From contig JAHLKG010000004.1 of assembly GCA_025526995.1 (NCBI GenBank), positions 496,001 through 560,000 on the forward strand: 64,000 nt of DNA, in the 5' to 3' direction. The notes under the pieces are model-generated. The model did no database searches, had not been told where the DNA came from, and worked only from the letters and a program-made list of their open reading frames with translations. This DNA is from Powellomyces hirtus. Lineage: Eukaryota > Chytridiomycota > Chytridiomycetes > Spizellomycetales > Powellomycetaceae. Below, one piece after another: positions 28,095 through 51,689 of this stretch (position 1 is its first letter; every line of letters starts with the position of its first letter). A program made the translations under genes and the position numbers.

Positions 28095-28334
28095 TGTTGG
28101 TCTGAGAGTATCTGGGTAGATAGTTGAGGAAGCTTTCAGGGTAGTTGACTGAGCAGAACAACGAAGTAACTTAATCCCGCTCTATTGGAGAAGAAGAGAA
28201 AAGTCCCACCGATATTTTAAGTATGGAAGGAAAACTACTTATATCGGAGTTGATCACGTGGGTTCACGTGATCGCGTGATACGCCCTGCGATGGCGCAGT
28301 TGTGACTCGATGACAGAGTCTGTACGTGCTAACA
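28095..28334 (-). repeat. B2 5' LTR
   Basis: 240-bp minus-strand Copia-B LTR with the paired CACGTG palindrome. The next base begins GATTC and gypsy pol sequence of element D. Confidence 0.93.
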
Positions 28335-29182
28335 GATTCCGACCACGCATCTTTCAACAATTGCTCATTCCCAACGGTCTACGACGTAAGGCGATTGAGT
28401 CATGCCACGATGACCTACTAGCTGGACACCTGGGGAGAGACGGAAGACTTCAGAAGGTGCAAGAGTCTTACTGGTGGCCAGGCTGGCATTCAGATGTAGT
28501 CAACCACGTCAAGTCATGTGCGAAATGTTTAGAACACAAACCATTACCAAAGAACCGAGTAGGACCATTAATGCCAATCATTGTCAACGACCCATGGGAG
28601 AAGATTGGTATAGACATCATTGGGAAGCTACCAACAACTGCAAGAGGCAACAACTACATCGTCATACTGATGAACTACATGACTAAGTGGGTTGAAGCCT
28701 TTGCGGTCCCCCACATCACGGCGAATCGCGTGTCAGGACGGCTAGTAGAGGATGTATTCTGTCGCTTCGGCATACCAGGAAGCATCGTCACTGACAGAGG
28801 GCAACCCTTTATCAGCGACTTGCAACATCGAATCCTGAGTCTGCTCACGGCGCACCCCGCTTTCACCTCGCTGTACCACCCAGAAGCCAGTGGTTTGACA
28901 GAACAGTTCAACGGTACACTGGTAAGAATGCTGCAAACGTACATGAATAAATACTCACACGACAATTGGGACACGCAATTACCATACAACCTGCTTGCTT
29001 ACCACACGGCTATGCACCAATCCACACACGAGTCCCCTTTCTTTCTCATGTTTGGACAGGACCCCCAGCTGCCAAAGGACCTACTACACCCACTGACAAC
29101 CTGGAAGAAGCACCAACAAGCATTGAGATGTGCGACTACAGAGTGGAAACGCAGTTTCGATTACAAAAAGCCTGGGCGCTAG
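28335..29182 (+). pseudogene. D integrase: zinc finger and catalytic core
   Basis: Gypsy integrase without its upstream part. HHCC zinc finger (HDDLLAGHLG, then CAKCLEHKP), core with GIDIIGKLP, IVTDRGQPF and GLTEQFNGTL giving D, D, E, then THESPFFLMFGQDPQ. The frame moves by one between about 29080 and 29110, after which the integrase C-terminal part continues in another frame. An ATG at 28310 lies inside the B2 LTR and is not a real start. Confidence 0.87.
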
Positions 29183-29880
29183 CAAGAGAAAACATTAAGA
29201 ATGCCGAAAAGACACAGAAGACCTGGTACAACAGGGTCTCTCACATGAAGGACTACGGTTTCCGCATCAGTGACAAAGTGTGGCCTGCCGTACCGCAATT
29301 CACCAAGTCTGCTCGAAAAGAGAATGAAACAGCAGTGGAAAAAATGGCAGTCAAATGGACTGGTCTGCACCGCATTATATCCTGCAACGGACCAACCTTT
29401 AAACTACTGGAAACCCTCAGCCCTACCGAAGTAATCTAACGCCAGGCCCACGCACGCAGACTACGATATTGGACTGAAAGGCGACCTGTCGATTCCAACG
29501 AAATCCCCTCACTAACGCAACAGGAGATCCTCGAGGAAGAACTCAAACTTGCAGAGACAGCCAACAAATTAACCTGCCAACCATTCAGACCGAAAGCGTG
29601 CGGGACTTCTCAAGAACTGACCTGCCGCAGAATTGACCTGGACGAAGATTCCAACCACAAAATTGACAAACTCGAAGGGGAGAACGCATACGAAGTCGAG
29701 AAGATCTTAAACCACCAAGACACTAAAGATGGCCGGGAGTTTCTTGTGAAGTGGAAATACTGGCCGGCAAAGCACAACACCTGGAAGACACAGGAGAACT
29801 TACAACGCACTCCTGAGGCCATACAAGCCTACAAAATGACGGTAGCATGGCCGGTTCCTGCCCACAAGCCCCGCGGGTAG
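29100..29880 (+). pseudogene. D integrase C-terminal region and chromodomain
   Basis: Continues the integrase in the next frame: RLQKAWALARENIKNAEK, KVWPAVPQ-like segment, WTGLHRIISCNGPTFKLLE (GPY/F-like), an in-frame TAA at 29437-29439, then a linker rich in Glu and Leu and a C-terminal chromodomain (YEVEKILNHQ, REFLVKWKYW, NTWKTQENL, about 29689-29805). Pol ends at TAG 29878-29880. Chromodomains of fungal gypsy elements bind methylated histone H3 and guide integration. Confidence 0.85.
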
Positions 29881-29894
29881 CGGCATCCTCTTCC

Positions 29895-29908
29895 AAAAAG
29901 GGGGGAGG
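29895..29908 (+). repeat. First D polypurine tract (internal copy)
   Basis: AAAAAGGGGGGAGG, 15 bases after the end of pol, identical over 14 bases to the tract that touches the 3' LTR at 32054-32067. In an ordinary gypsy element the LTR would start here. Confidence 0.65.
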
Positions 29909-30311
29909 GGGAACGGCACAAAAATAGGATTCCGAACGTCAGTCCACAACGGCCAAGGGAGAACAGAAGCGATTTCAAAGGAAACAAACAAACAGTATAG
30001 TCCCAGTGGCGACTGGGACACCACAAAATGGGAGTGACAGACGCAAAAGTCCACAAACAATGTGCCGCTGATAGTGGCTAAAAGGCGACTGAGAAGCAGC
30101 GATAAACGGAAAAAGCCGTATCCGCCAAACCGTTGAGCCGAACGAAGCAACCAAACACTGATAAACTCGGGCCAGGAATCAGATGGTAAAAGGAGAAGCA
30201 TAACTCCTGCCTGCTCACACAAAAATCTCCGGCAGTAAAGAGAAGACTCGCTTACAGCGCACGCATAGCAACTCAAAAACAACTACCTGACACCAAACTT
30301 AGCAACAAGCA
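29909..30311 (+). other. D spacer between pol and extra genes
   Basis: About 400 bases, A-rich in places, with no gene I can support. It ends in a plausible leader just before the ATG at 30312. Confidence 0.5.
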
Positions 30312-30962
30312 ATGTCAGCACCAACGGACCCCTGGGGAGGCACAGGCAGCTGTGCAATTGCCCGAAGTTCACAATACCTCACAAGCACCGAAAGAAGCCT
30401 CAGGTCTGGGACAGTCAGAGCAAGAACATCCTTAAGCTCCATATTCCCTGGCCTAGCAGAAACTACGATACAAGCAGGACCCTCCATGCGACTTCCCCGG
30501 CGAGCAAAAAACAGGACATCCACTGGCATATCCCCGCTAGAACAGGATCTCATCGACATGACCGGACCGGCTTTCCCGCACAACAACAAATTCTGCTTCT
30601 GCAAGAGAATAGAAGACCTAGATGTTTACGGACCAATGATTGAATGCGACAACCCGGATTGCGACCGGAAATAGTTCCACATGATTTGCATTGACATTGA
30701 TGTTGACAAACAGGATCTGGAGTACATACAATGGTTCTGCCCCGTGTGTGACTGCCTCAGGGAACTTGGCATTCAAACCACGAGCTCAGCTGGCAGAGTA
30801 GGAACAGTGACCCTCTCGCCCCCACCACCGCTTCTGTGGCCAGTGCCTACAATCATCACTACGGGACAAAGAGACACCCCCTGGATGGCAATACACCGTC
30901 CGAAATGGTCAAATGCATTTGCAACCTGGTTTGACACCATAGCCGCCCCCAACGCCATATGA
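30312..30962 (+). pseudogene. D extra frame 1: PHD finger protein
   Basis: Starts ATGTCAGCA at 30312. After about 90 polar residues comes a PHD zinc finger: CFC, then CDNPDC, FHMIC and WFCPVC give the Cys4-His-Cys3 order (30594-30770). An in-frame TAG at 30672-30674 sits where PHD fingers have the conserved Trp before Phe-His, so it is probably a TGG-to-TAG change. A TGA at 30960-30962 ends the visible piece; the frame then continues open to about 31105. PHD fingers read the H3 tail. It lies just upstream of the dioxygenase frame and may have been one protein with it. Confidence 0.72.
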
Positions 30963-31089
30963 TTCCGGGGTCCCCCACCCGCTGATGAGCGGTGCCAAAT
31001 GGAGAAAGAGGCGATTGCACCCATGGAACGTCGGAAGTACCTGCAATTCTACCTAGTGGACAGCGACGCATGGATAGAAGACACCCCTC

Positions 31090-32073
31090 TTGTTCTTTAT
31101 TAGGGACCCCACAGTAGGCGCGACCAAGCACATGGACGACTACATGACCCGTGTCTATGACAATCTCTACTACACGAACCTGACAATGATGGATACCAGG
31201 ATGGCCATGAAGAATGCCTGCGACACGAAAACGGGTGCCATCCTCCACGCTGGAGCCTGGGTCTCGCAGGGCTCAATGTCACGCTTGCCTGTCATTCCAA
31301 ACATCGCAGCAGCCGGATCCTTCTTATGGGACCATGCCAAGATGGCGAACGAGCAGTGTGGCCTCTACGCACGCATGGCAGCCATCAAGGACAACATCCA
31401 CAGTACAAACTGGCGACACTGGATTGCAGATGCTCCCAAACAAATCCGTGATGCCATGCTCACCCCCAACGCACCCGGGAACCTCATGACGAACAACTTC
31501 AACGCAATTTCCGGCTCCCACTTTGATGTCAACAACCACAAGTGGGCTATCATGGCGGTCCACGGTAACTTCACTCCCGGGCACAGTGGCGACCTCATCC
31601 TCCCCAACCAAGAGATTAGGGTGCACACCCGTCCTGGAGACATAGTCATTGCCCGGTTCGAACGAATGCGACACAAAGTGACCCGGTTGGAATTGCCCCG
31701 TGAGGAACGGTACACTTAAGTCGTATCTGAGCAGGAGACATTTTACAAAGCCCATGATACCGGGTATCGCCTCAGGCAATGGGAAGGACCTCGAATGCTA
31801 TGGCCCATTGGCGGCATCCAGACTCCGGCCGCTGATGGCTCAATGCAACTTCCAAAGGCCGTCCCCAAGATGCACAAAATCCACCGGAGTAACATCTTTC
31901 CTCCCAGGCCCGCGCCCGAGGAAATGAAGTTGAGTGAGCGACCCACAATTGAAAGAGCTAGATGCGGAAAGAAACATTTTTACAACCGTGCCAAGCACTA
32001 TGGCAGACTGAATTCTTACAGCACTAGACATGGGACTTGGTTGCAGGAAGGTCAAAAAGGGGGGAGGATGTGA
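31090..32073 (+). pseudogene. D extra frame 2: TET/JBP-like 2-oxoglutarate/Fe(II) dioxygenase
   Basis: A 327-codon frame broken by one TAA (31717-31719). The core reads SGSHFDVNNHKWAIMAVHG, then GDLILP, RPGDIVIARF and RHKVTRLELPREER. This fits the double-stranded beta-helix oxygenase pattern: HxD (His about 144, Asp 146), a distal His about 195, and an Arg 9 or 12 residues later for 2-oxoglutarate. The block order resembles fungal TET/JBP enzymes, which oxidise 5-methylcytosine or thymine; an AlkB- or P4H-like enzyme is the alternative. The visible start is not ATG; the PHD frame reads into it with a one-base shift near 31085. The end overlaps the first bases of the 3' LTR. Confidence 0.62.
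32054..32068 (+). promoter_or_regulatory. Second D polypurine tract, next to 3' LTR
   Basis: AAAAAGGGGGGAGGA directly before the LTR; the plus-strand primer site of the element. Confidence 0.8.
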
Positions 32074-32480
32074 AAGGGACGGTACTTAAGGGTCCTTTAG
32101 TTAGTTAGTTAGTTAAGTACACGTGTTTTGTATCACTCTCATGCATGATGCCAGATGTACAGAGACTGGATGGCACATGCCGTATTCTCTGCTATGGCAA
32201 TGCATGAGTATATAAACGGGTGAAGAACAGAGTTGTATGCACCCCCATTACTGTGGTACACTGGAGGACAATTCTCCTAGGTCTATATGCAGAGGCCTGT
32301 AGTCTAGTACTAAGGATAGAGGTATTCATACAGAGCAGCACTTCTACTCTTGCCCTTAGCACTAGGCAAACTAGCACACCCCAGCACATAGCCGAACTCA
32401 CCTGAAAGCCACGTCGGTACCCAAGGCGCCATATAGCGTATATTATGCCTATAACCCCACCCGACCAGCACCCTTTCACA
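32069..32480 (+). repeat. D 3' LTR
   Basis: 412 bp with perfect 10-bp inverted ends TGTGAAAGGG and CCCTTTCACA. ACACGTGT at 32119-32126 and a clear TATA box (TATATAAAC at 32209-32217). Four TTAG units in tandem at about 32097-32114. Confidence 0.9.
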
Positions 32481-48384: not shown

Positions 48385-48995
48385 TGTTCTTGGGGAGTTT
48401 TGTAGGCTTTCCCACCCTTGTGGACCATGGAAACAGTTTTCTGCAATCTAGTTCCTCTAATTGGACTGTGTGGGCCAGCTTCAGTGCTGGGGCTGTAGCT
48501 TTCCTCGTGGAATTACTTCCTTAAGCAGTGCCTGCTGTGTCAGCCAGTTGTTGAGGCTGTTGGGTTCGGTAAGGAATACTTCTCGTACTGGTTCTACTGC
48601 AAAGTCACGGTTTTCAGAATCTATCCACCCGAGTAGCTGTTGCTTGCGAGGTTAACAACTGGGGATAGCCAGGTGCCATTCCAGGTTGGTTTCACCTGGT
48701 TGGGGCACCAAATGCCGCTATTCTGCATGCTCTTACTGCTGGTGACAAGGTAGCATTTTGTTGGGACTCATCTCTTGTTCAGGCCTGGCCGCAATGTGCA
48801 TGACATGGTGAGCTGGTAGGTAAGCTTCTTCCTCTGCCACGGAAACTGGGGATGCAAATGCTGCTGTAATGATGGGTACCATCTGTGGTGAATTTCCCAA
48901 ATACGGTTTTCATAGGTGTCTTCCTTTGTGGGCTGTCAGGCTTGCTATCATATTCCAGTACGTTGAATTCAGGTCTAATTTGGTCTTGTATTCTT
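48385..48995 (-). other. Decayed sequence left of remnant G protease
   Basis: About 600 bases with short minus-strand frames only. It is probably the continuation of remnant G pol but no motif could be named. Confidence 0.3.
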
Positions 48996-49260
48996 TCAGG
49001 CTGGGTATCTGATAGGGACGGGTCTGCAGGGGCCACAAACAATACTGAATCGCATTTTTTGTGGTTGGATGCCTTGGATATTAATTTCTAGATCCAGATA
49101 GATGTGTTCTGTAGCTTTGCCAGAACCAATTCCTGTTATGTTGCTTGTGTGTTGCCATACATGCACTGGGGTCCTTACTTGGAGGACTTTAAAGAAACTG
49201 TCTGAGATGCAATTGATAGTGGCGGCCAGGTCTGCAGTTAGTCCATCCATTTCAATTCCA
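48996..49260 (-). pseudogene. Remnant G, protease-like segment
   Basis: Reads DGLTADLAATINCISDSFFK, then TPVHVWQHTSNITGIGSGKA and YLDLEINIQG. The spacing and hydrophobic pattern resemble a gypsy retropepsin (DSGAS-N-ISxxF type), but the catalytic triplet is not intact. Low confidence. Confidence 0.35.
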
Positions 49261-50449
49261 TGTATTTTGCCATATATTTAGGCAACTGTGAACATCATGT
49301 GCTTGAGATCGTTGTTGACATGTGCGTTGTCTTGTTTTTTTTGTCAGCTCCGGCAATGTATGCCTCAGCCCAGCCTTGCTTTCATTTGCTGTTTTTGTCT
49401 GTGCAGAAGCATCCTCAGCTTTCACAATCCATGTCATTTCATCATATTGTTTGCGCCATCTGTGAGGGCAATGTCCAATCAGCTCTCTCCTTCCATTCTT
49501 GTATGGTTGTGACCGATTGAGGAAGCTTCTTGTGACAGGAGTGTTGTCCAAGTCAGTATACAATGACAAGGTTAGCGACAGCTCATCGGTTCCTCTCAAG
49601 TGCCACACAGCATTGGGAATCCCTTCCCTGTCTGCTGGTCGCATTCTTGGTTTCGAGGTGTCAAAGCCAGTCTTCTTTCTGTTTCCTTGTTGTGTATTAG
49701 CATCTGTGGCACCCTCTCCTGTTTGTGTAGTTGGTCATGCTAAGATGGCACTGGGTGCAGTTGCAAGTGATGGTGTGCAGTTCGTACCTTGGCTGTGTCA
49801 GCTGGAATCGTTTGCCAGATTTCAATGATCTCATTGAAGGGGATGCATGATGCTTGGGTTATTCCAATGTAGCAGTCTTCAGGAGATATGCAAGATACTG
49901 TGAGTGGCCTGTGGTGGTTTTGGGACCATGCACGCTGTGATTCGGTTATGAACCATTGTTGTGCTTTGACTTCTCCTGATATCCTCCAGGCCCCAATGTA
50001 GGGCCATGCGGGTTTGTTGATAATGCCGGAGCCATCAGCTCAGGTGCCTCATCAGGTGAAAAGTACGCCTGAATGCCTTAGCAATTTCGGGTAGTCGCCG
50101 CACATTCTGAGTAGTTGTTGGTACCAGAGGGAATTTTTTCATACAGGTGTGATCAAAGTCATGGTAGCGCCGTCGACACTCACATTGGCGAGGACTTGCA
50201 GTGTGAGTTCCCATGGCGGGTTAGCCCAACAGTTTTTGGTGCTCCAGTTGTGTGTGAATGCATTCTGACAAACAGCTGAGGAATCATTGTAGACAATTGT
50301 GCAGTAGCAGTAGACTAAGCAGTTGTGTGTTGTGGCAGACAGGTTAATCGTGTGACCTTGTGGGCCTCCCCACCGTCCCATGTTGGGTTGGTCAAAAACG
50401 TTGGGGTGCAATTGCCAATCGTTATGGTTGTCGGAGGCAATGTAGGCTT
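49261..50449 (-). pseudogene. Remnant G, gag-like region
   Basis: Broken minus-strand frames between the putative LTR and the protease-like segment. Readable parts include a 75-80 residue Cys-containing frame at 50370-50139 with several NxS/T sites, a stretch ISGEVKAQQWFITESQRAW near 49990-49930, and PQSVTTIQEWKERADWTL near 49520-49465, which resembles the end of a gypsy gag. No domain can be named with confidence. Confidence 0.35.
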
Positions 50450-50804
50450 TGTTGAATAGGTATGATCAGGAAGTTCAGCAATGTGTTGATTGTGTGTGGA
50501 AACTGCCTTTTCATTGAGAGGGAGGGGCCAGGGATTACTGGCCTTTTATAGAAGACTATCTGTACACTGCCAAGGAAGCCAAGTCCCTTGGCATGGCTTG
50601 GCAGACCCAGGCTGAGCAGTGCTAAGCAATGCTGAGTTCTCTGTGGGTACGCTGAGGCTGTTCTGGCATTGCCGAGATCCTTGGCAGAGGCTCAACTCAA
50701 ACAACACAGCCTCAGGATGTAACCTGCCACAACTCGGTCAGCTGTGGCTCCATCTAACTAAAACAAGCCTCACTGGCTGCCGCACAACCCGGGCTATTGA
50801 ACAC
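50450..50804 (-). repeat. Putative LTR of remnant G
   Basis: 355 bp between TGTTGAATAG and CTATTGAACA, which are inverted repeats with one mismatch over 10 bases. A minus-strand TATA box CTATAAAAGG at 50551-50542 fits a promoter driving the region to the left. No partner LTR is in the window. Confidence 0.45.
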
Positions 50805-50877
50805 CGTCCACAGTCTGGGGATTGGGCACCTACAGGCAAAGGTACAGACTCCAACACATTCCTTGCTTGTACCATTT

Positions 50878-51567
50878 TCAGACCTTGTCAAGTAGATTGT
50901 CAAATGTAATTGTCACTTTGTCCCAGCATTTGCCTTTGACCAGGATGGACTTCATAGATGGCTTCTGGTGACACTCCAGGAAGGTGTATTTCTTTTCTTG
51001 GTCATTCAACTGTGATACCCTCGGCAATGCCTTGTTCAAGGGCCGGAGTGGGATGACAAAGGCTCTGGACATCTCTTGCAGCTTCTTCTTTAGCGTGAGT
51101 ACTGCCATATGTCGGTCCATGCTTGTCTGCTTGGTGCCAAACCAGACCATGAGTTCTTTAAAGAAATCATCAAATGTCTTGTAACGGTCGACTACCGAGT
51201 ATGACCAGGTGAGCATGGTGCAGGTGAAATGCTTGTGAGAGAGATACTTGCGTGCATTGTCCATGTTGGTAAGACAGCCTTGGTGCACAGCCATTTCAAC
51301 TTCTCCACGCAGGCGGGAGCAGAATTCTTGCACATCCACTTCTTTGCCATCCAGCTTTTTGTTATTGGGTAGTTCTAGCATCCAGAGGACTTGAGAGAGG
51401 TCTCTCACAAAGCTCTGGTTCTTTACAGGTTGCATTGTACTGGTAGTTTGAGTATGGAAAATGTACGGTATGTTGGTGTCATCGTTCAAGAACTCGGGAT
51501 GCTGAGCGGGTGTGTGGAAGATATCAGTTTTTTTGTTGTAGGTTGCTGCAGTCTGTCTAGTAGGCAT
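50878..51567 (-). pseudogene. gag: Remnant H, retrotransposon gag-like protein
   Basis: Open frame of 229 codons (the ATG at the start is at or near 51567). It holds DVQEFCSRLRGEVEMAVHQG, FDDFFKELMVWFGTKQ, AVLTLKKKLQEMSRAF and EKKYTFLECHQKPSM, the helix pattern of a retrotransposon gag. No zinc knuckle is seen; the frame ends at TGA near 50878. The family was not identified. Confidence 0.5.
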
Positions 51568-51689
51568 GCTAGGGTCTGCCTAGACTGTCCTTGTGCAGCA
51601 GGAAATGCTCCAGGTAGTTCAGCGTGAGTTTTCAGCCATTTGGTGACCAATGCAAAGCCATCATAATTGCTGATGTGAGTGTTTCCGCT
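51568..51689. other. Unassigned junction between H and A5
   Basis: Short stretch with nothing identifiable. Similarity to Copia-A starts at about 51690. Confidence 0.4.

Follow-up and report, generated by a model that had tools for sequence, protein, structure and literature searches.

A gene for a PHD finger and a predicted 2-oxoglutarate-Fe(II) oxygenase in the env position of a Ty3/Gypsy chromovirus from Powellomyces hirtus

Results

The DNA analyzed here is a stretch of 64,000 nucleotides from the chytrid Powellomyces hirtus (contig JAHLKG010000004.1; hereafter the window), which corresponds to C4:496001-560000 of the 29.3 Mb genome searched, C-numbers denoting the contigs of that genome. 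The genome has 15 matches to Zn_clus, a domain family of fungi, in keeping with a fungal source. The plus strand of the window carries, from about position 28331 to position 32480, the 3' portion of a Ty3/Gypsy chromovirus, comprising integrase, chromodomain, an extra gene (hereafter the cargo), a polypurine tract and a 412-bp long terminal repeat (LTR). The cargo occupies the place where retroviruses carry env, is under purifying selection about as strong as that on the integrase, and encodes a PHD finger followed by a domain that, judged by motif and homology, is very probably a 2-oxoglutarate (2OG)-Fe(II) oxygenase.

A Copia-like repeat, so labeled from pol motifs read by eye, truncates the 5' side of the window copy at about 28331-28334, and for this reason the portion from gag to reverse transcriptase (RT) is missing. 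What remains of pol begins with a broken stretch (28331-29436) holding two parts of the integrase, the zinc-binding domain (H2C2, 68.7 bits) and the core, which at 24.2 bits stays under the rve cut-off of 32.6, and ends with the chromodomain frame (29440-29880; PF00385, 64.5 bits). A first polypurine tract just after pol (29895-29913) has 14 bases in common with the tract (32054-32068) that adjoins the 3' LTR (32069-32480, TGTGAAAGGG to CCCTTTCACA). An initial annotation of this DNA had placed the chromodomain, the further frames and the 3' LTR correctly; the last 5 bases of its range for the cargo region, 30312-32073, already lie inside the LTR.

Between the polypurine tracts, the cargo survives as four pieces and a tail. 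The first piece (30312-30674) contains the ATG, the N-terminal part and the first half of the PHD finger and ends in a TAG (30672-30674), and the second (30675-30962) contains the second half of the PHD finger and linker up to a TGA (30960-30962). Linker also makes up the third piece (30963-31103), which ends in a TAG (31101-31103) close to a change of frame near 31078-31100. The fourth (31078-31719) encodes the predicted oxygenase domain and ends in a TAA (31717-31719). The C-terminal tail (31720-32073) has no stop where the open copy described below has one, and the window copy continues into the LTR. By position against residues 98-149 of that open copy, the PHD finger spans 30594-30749. 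The oxygenase motif residues, as read from the sequence, are the HxD at 31519-31527, then PGDIV, the distal His at 31672-31674 and the Arg at 31708-31710, the pattern on which the initial annotation had drawn. The TAG in the PHD finger, the TAA in the oxygenase and the one frame change that it reported are all present; the TGA had been overlooked.

An open form of the gene exists on contig C1. This copy, 88% identical to the window in this region, carries the cargo uninterrupted in one 563-aa frame. The integrase-chromodomain frame upstream of the cargo is open as well; elsewhere in the pol of this copy there are breaks. Its LTRs (C1:1828595-1829024 and C1:1838712-1839141) are 98.4% identical over 430 bases, and the element is flanked by CTAC (or ACTAC) repeats, a target duplication of 4-5 bp inside Copia-like sequence. 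Near 28126-28165, the window shows the unoccupied form of this insertion site, as judged by eye. The order of the Pfam domains in the C1 element, zinc knuckle, RVT_1, RNaseH, H2C2/rve and Chromo, is that of a Ty3/Gypsy chromovirus, and its protease was read by eye only, from a D-T-A motif.

The initial annotation had called for a look at other copies of the element, and these carry the cargo in the same place. Searches of the genome returned at least 21 stretches at the DNA level and at least 41 with the C1 protein. The cargo occurs at 15 loci, the window type and C28/C8 each being counted once, and is followed by an LTR on the same strand at nine of them (C1, C11, the window type, C2:916k, C14, C29:47k, C6, C15 and C28/C8). 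The distance from the cargo, or from its last recognizable part, to the LTR is about 0.1 kb (about 0.6 kb in C14); at the remaining six loci no LTR was found within roughly 1.5 kb of sequence inspected. When the integrase-chromodomain was taken as the starting point, of ten matches of at least 63% identity that reach query residue 340, eight were followed by the cargo on the same strand, three of these eight being one duplicated insertion. The two exceptions are a rearranged copy on C17 and a copy on C7 with another repeat inserted at the cargo point, and no clean cargo-less copy was found in the genome. In the C7 copy (C7:126700-129700), the repeat in the cargo position is another of those present in the window.

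Three copies, those in the window, on C35 and at C4:605669, have over 1 kb of flank past the LTR in common. They derive from a single insertion, so that independent insertion of all near-identical copies was rejected. The copies on C1, C11, C2, C14, C29 and C6 sit elsewhere, because their similarity to the window stops at the LTR end. At C28:7659-23564 and C8:384955-392420, cargo copies are spaced about 6.64 kb apart, like tandem arrays common to the two contigs, and one additional cargo copy lies 1.8 kb away on C28. As to origin, the similar polypurine tracts on both sides of the cargo, the first of which the C1 copy keeps partly, suggest by way of a guess that the cargo was gained between an old polypurine tract and the LTR.

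Selection on the cargo was estimated as the ratio of nonsynonymous to synonymous substitution rates (dN/dS) by Nei-Gojobori counts, without confidence limits. Between the window and C1 the ratio is 0.18 for the cargo (553 codons), 0.05 for the PHD finger (58 codons), 0.12 for the oxygenase (225 codons) and 0.14 for the integrase-chromodomain (357 codons), compared with 1.03-1.50 in the wrong frames of cargo and integrase. Comparisons with C28, C17 and C15 give 0.15-0.25 in the right frame of the cargo and 0.82-1.36 in wrong frames, and comparison with C11 gives 0.20 against 0.68 and 1.43. Since the right-frame values are well below those of the wrong frames, the gene was retained over the history of the family for the sake of its protein. 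The two-domain pattern first noted in the window also exceeds chance, both domains standing in the one open C1 frame, in the same place, with a dN/dS of 0.18 as opposed to 1.3-1.5 in two wrong frames. The dS of the PHD finger (30594-30749) to C1 is 0.82, compared with 0.20-0.36 elsewhere in the cargo, perhaps a recombination patch.

The assignment of the PHD finger, made from sequence, is firm. The TAG splits the pattern in the window copy, in which the second half alone scores 18.4 bits (PF00628; cut-off 24); the unbroken C1 protein, with its C4HC3 pattern, scores 25.4 bits, above the cut-off, and a metagenome relative of the cargo protein 22.0 bits, below it. The best solved relatives of the C1 finger in the Protein Data Bank (PDB) are png2 (E 2.7e-10) and ING proteins including ING4. 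ING PHD fingers bind H3K4me3, and the aromatic, Met and Trp positions of what we take to be the pocket for this mark look kept in C1. Elsewhere in the genome, a PHD-only match (35%) at C5:557923-558087, within an open frame of 326 aa, may represent a PHD gene of the host.

In the second domain, the HxD...H metal triad and the 2OG-binding Arg recur at near-equal spacing in the C1 protein and in the metagenome relative, which is 44% identical. The catalytic residues align with those of a cyanophage 2OG oxygenase, and the HxD and distal His also with those of NgTet1. Relatives are scarce: homologue searches in 5.8 billion proteins returned nothing or the metagenome relative only (one of them scored just the 7995 candidates sharing most words), a scan of viral contigs for cargo homologues returned none, and NCBIfam gave no match to the cargo protein.

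The C1 element contains a further unusual frame. Between the zinc-knuckle gag frame and the RT, a frame of 566 aa with an NPPW motif matches the Pfam family Dam (PF05869) at 24.8 bits, or 27.0 bits in the genome search, the cut-off being 28.1. An old fragment of the same element family on the minus strand of the window (48531-51652; 72-75% identical to the C1 copy) contains part of gag and this Dam-like frame, with NPPW kept and DLFA not. Between the two copies dN/dS is 0.18 for the frame (434 codons) and 0.12 for its Dam part (122 codons), versus 0.85 and 1.16 in wrong frames. A PDB search with the Dam-like frame found no methyltransferase.

The copies also record a loss of CpG. With C1 as the reference and seven other copies pooled, 28-31% of C in NCG contexts have changed to T, versus 9-15% in the twelve other contexts. 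This two- to three-fold excess is alike in the four NCG contexts (0.28-0.31), so that TCG-specific hypermutation of the kind reported for rusts is not seen. Five old loci, taken with their flanks, have a CpG observed/expected ratio of 0.33-0.54, as against 0.82-0.98 for the C1 loci and the window; 37-61% of CpG pairs are changed, a count that takes both strands of the pair and is not comparable with the one-base figures. The loss probably reflects CpG methylation followed by deamination and, the old copies being CpG-depleted, the host probably methylates this element family. It speaks for a pressure on the family, not for relief of that pressure by the oxygenase.

C5-methylase domains have 14 matches in the genome, one of them in a virus-like or Polinton-like locus (C30:119000-127000) that also has PrimPol (85.9 bits) and a chromodomain-bearing integrase and matches a capsid family weakly (PF16903, E 0.022). 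There, a 698-aa frame combines a C5-methylase (125.8 bits) with a Dam-like domain (23.5 bits, below the cut-off). Equal-scoring C5-methylase matches at C13:797799-798638 and C50:20464-21303 each lie in a 736-aa frame.

Discussion

The position of the cargo, its open frame in one copy, the selection on it, the PHD finger, the pattern of catalytic residues and the homology to 2OG oxygenases are all directly supported. On balance, and with some reserve, we favor the reading that this Ty3/Gypsy chromovirus has the cargo as a stable third gene, whose PHD finger and 2OG-Fe(II) oxygenase, most likely TET/JBP-like, counter silencing. The protein would be made from full or spliced RNA and enter the nucleus, where the ING-like PHD finger would anchor it to the tails of histone H3. 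The oxygenase would oxidize 5-methylcytosine (or 6-methyladenine) in element copies that are new or silenced. Copies so oxidized would stay expressed and lose fewer CpGs. The counter-silencing role is one that we infer; the CpG loss in old copies and the C5-methylase domains make its setting plausible.

TET/JBP is the most likely subfamily of the oxygenase, on the sequence comparisons at hand, and is unproven. The initial annotation had proposed a TET/JBP-like beta-helix enzyme: the 2OG-Fe(II) oxygenase stands by motif and homology, the beta-helix is not shown by structure prediction, and the subfamily stays a proposal. Several results weigh against the favored reading. AlphaFold2 models of the 563-aa C1 protein (9-row alignment) and of residues 195-488 (15 rows) reached mean confidence (pLDDT) of 31.4 and 34.6 from shallow alignments. 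The Pfam model Tet_JBP (PF12851) matches the metagenome relative at 12.9 bits, versus a cut-off of 34.9, and the C1 protein not at all. A profile mixed with the phage protein ranks NgTet1 first in the PDB, with the prolyl 4-hydroxylase 6iuq second and only 1.3 bits behind (E 0.0071). The cyanophage protein, the nearest relative by alignment score, matches 2OG-FeII_Oxy_3 (PF13640) at 48.8 bits and Tet_JBP at only 20.5, and in the PDB it finds NgTet1 at E 0.011 and prolyl 3-hydroxylase 1 at E 0.014. Finally, most genomic matches of the cargo are pieces or contain stops, and the C28/C8 copies read HFN, not HFD. On the profile searches themselves, NgTet1, a genuine TET enzyme, is likewise without a PF12851 match, and the Pfam model can miss remote members; PF12851 found nothing in the genome of the fungus, though control genomes gave no match either. 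Element-only profiles found no match to the oxygenase domain in the PDB.

The two prolyl hydroxylase matches and the PF13640 score of the phage protein would suit a PHD-linked protein hydroxylase or demethylase (2OG-FeII_Oxy_3 or prolyl-hydroxylase-like) with histones, capsid or silencing proteins as substrates, and PHD fingers are indeed common in histone-modifying enzymes. We consider this rather unlikely, because, up to an E of 10, PF13640 matches neither the C1 protein nor its core piece nor the metagenome relative, in the last of which Tet_JBP does appear, and because NgTet1 ranks above the hydroxylases, though narrowly. Moreover, collagen-type prolyl hydroxylases bind 2OG by a Lys, and the cargo has an Arg at this position.

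An AlkB-like nucleic-acid demethylase that acts on element RNA (N6-methyladenosine, m6A) or on damaged bases would have a precedent in orchids, since in Phalaenopsis, according to the available part of PMC9289625, a Gypsy element encodes a 2OG oxygenase that demethylates m6A. The same text nests the orchid open reading frame (ORF) among AlkBH5 homologues. For the cargo, the AlkB-type model PF13532 gives no match at E up to 10 with the C1 protein, the core piece or the metagenome relative, although remote members can escape it, and no AlkB family occurs in the Pfam results or PDB lists, no direct comparison with an AlkB sequence having been made; we judge this identity improbable. Very unlikely, too, is a domain with the right fold that is catalytically dead and serves as a mere binding module. 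The stops and the HFN motif would fit such a module, but the metal and 2OG ligands are kept in the C1 protein and the metagenome relative despite 44% identity, selection on the oxygenase is as strong as on the integrase, and the HFN-bearing C28 locus is CpG-depleted and therefore old. Lastly, the idea that a host gene entered one copy by chance and this copy was later duplicated is refuted: the window copy, C4:605669 and C35 do descend from one duplicated insertion, but copies at separate sites, and those at C15 and C28/C8, have the LTR after the cargo, the cargo-less C7 copy holds another repeat at that point, and genome searches found no full-length host homologue. The copies, the LTRs and target duplication of C1 and the selection together make the cargo part of the LTR retrotransposon itself, as initially proposed.

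The Dam-like domain permits a wider, tentative extension of the TET/JBP-like reading, one that we hold possible and somewhat doubtful. The element may both write and erase base marks, with a base-modification kit on one LTR retrotransposon (Dam-like methyltransferase in gag-pol, chromodomain and PHD finger as readers, TET/JBP-type eraser in the env position) that would manage the methylation of its own copies. As the available text of PMC11040006 has CcTet acting on both 5-methylcytosine and 6-methyladenine, the Dam-like domain makes one ask whether adenine marks, too, play a part in this element.

Cargo of the TET/JBP type is known from many DNA transposons and Helitrons, and Kojima 2025, who found no retrotransposon encoding TET/JBP, discusses this absence as needing explanation (PMC12730594, section 4.2); a 2026 review, in the part available, cites that paper for transposon-encoded TET/JBP (PMC13297926). 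Those elements resemble the present one in being fungal mobile elements with a TET/JBP-like oxygenase cargo thought to counter methylation silencing. Here, in contrast, the carrier is an LTR retrotransposon and the sequence is too distant for Pfam; the word PHD does not occur in the text of PMC12730594. The orchid Ty3/Gypsy elements likewise have an additional ORF, of 565 aa, with a 2OG oxygenase, yet theirs is an AlkBH5-like AlkB m6A demethylase in the plant Tat/Ogre lineage, and PHD and TET are absent from the available text (PMC9289625).

Retroelements with base-modifying enzymes are also known, as far as the consulted portions of the sources go: Dam domains in DIRS elements and the cytosine methyltransferase Dnmt3 in a charophyte Gypsy element (PMC3783388, PMC5890265). 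The present element differs from these in its Dam-like domain between chromovirus gag and RT and in its oxygenase. Dam in Gypsy is not claimed as new, because the excerpted text of a review treats Dam- and Dcm-encoding elements of the Gypsy and DIRS clades together (PMC6338049). By the accessible parts of two further papers, ORF3 genes of bdelloid LTR retrotransposons are captured genes in the env position, unlike ours GDSL esterases and DEDDy exonucleases (PMC5408684), and a PHD finger occurs in ORF1 of Jockey/CR1 long interspersed elements, which are non-LTR (PMC4120745). A term search of a survey of fungal LTR elements (PMC3248453) found none of the words PHD, oxygenase and methyltransferase. 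We found no publication that describes an LTR retrotransposon with a TET/JBP or PHD-oxygenase gene, in a search mainly of open literature and top results that is no proof of priority.

If true, a selected TET/JBP gene in a chromovirus would break the rule that such genes are absent from retrotransposons, and would offer a natural test of whether oxidizing methylated bases helps a copy-and-paste element. This one genome combines young and old copies of the family with measurable CpG loss, so that direct study of its effect on silencing and mutation is possible. Should the activity be confirmed, it would represent a new way for LTR elements to fight silencing.
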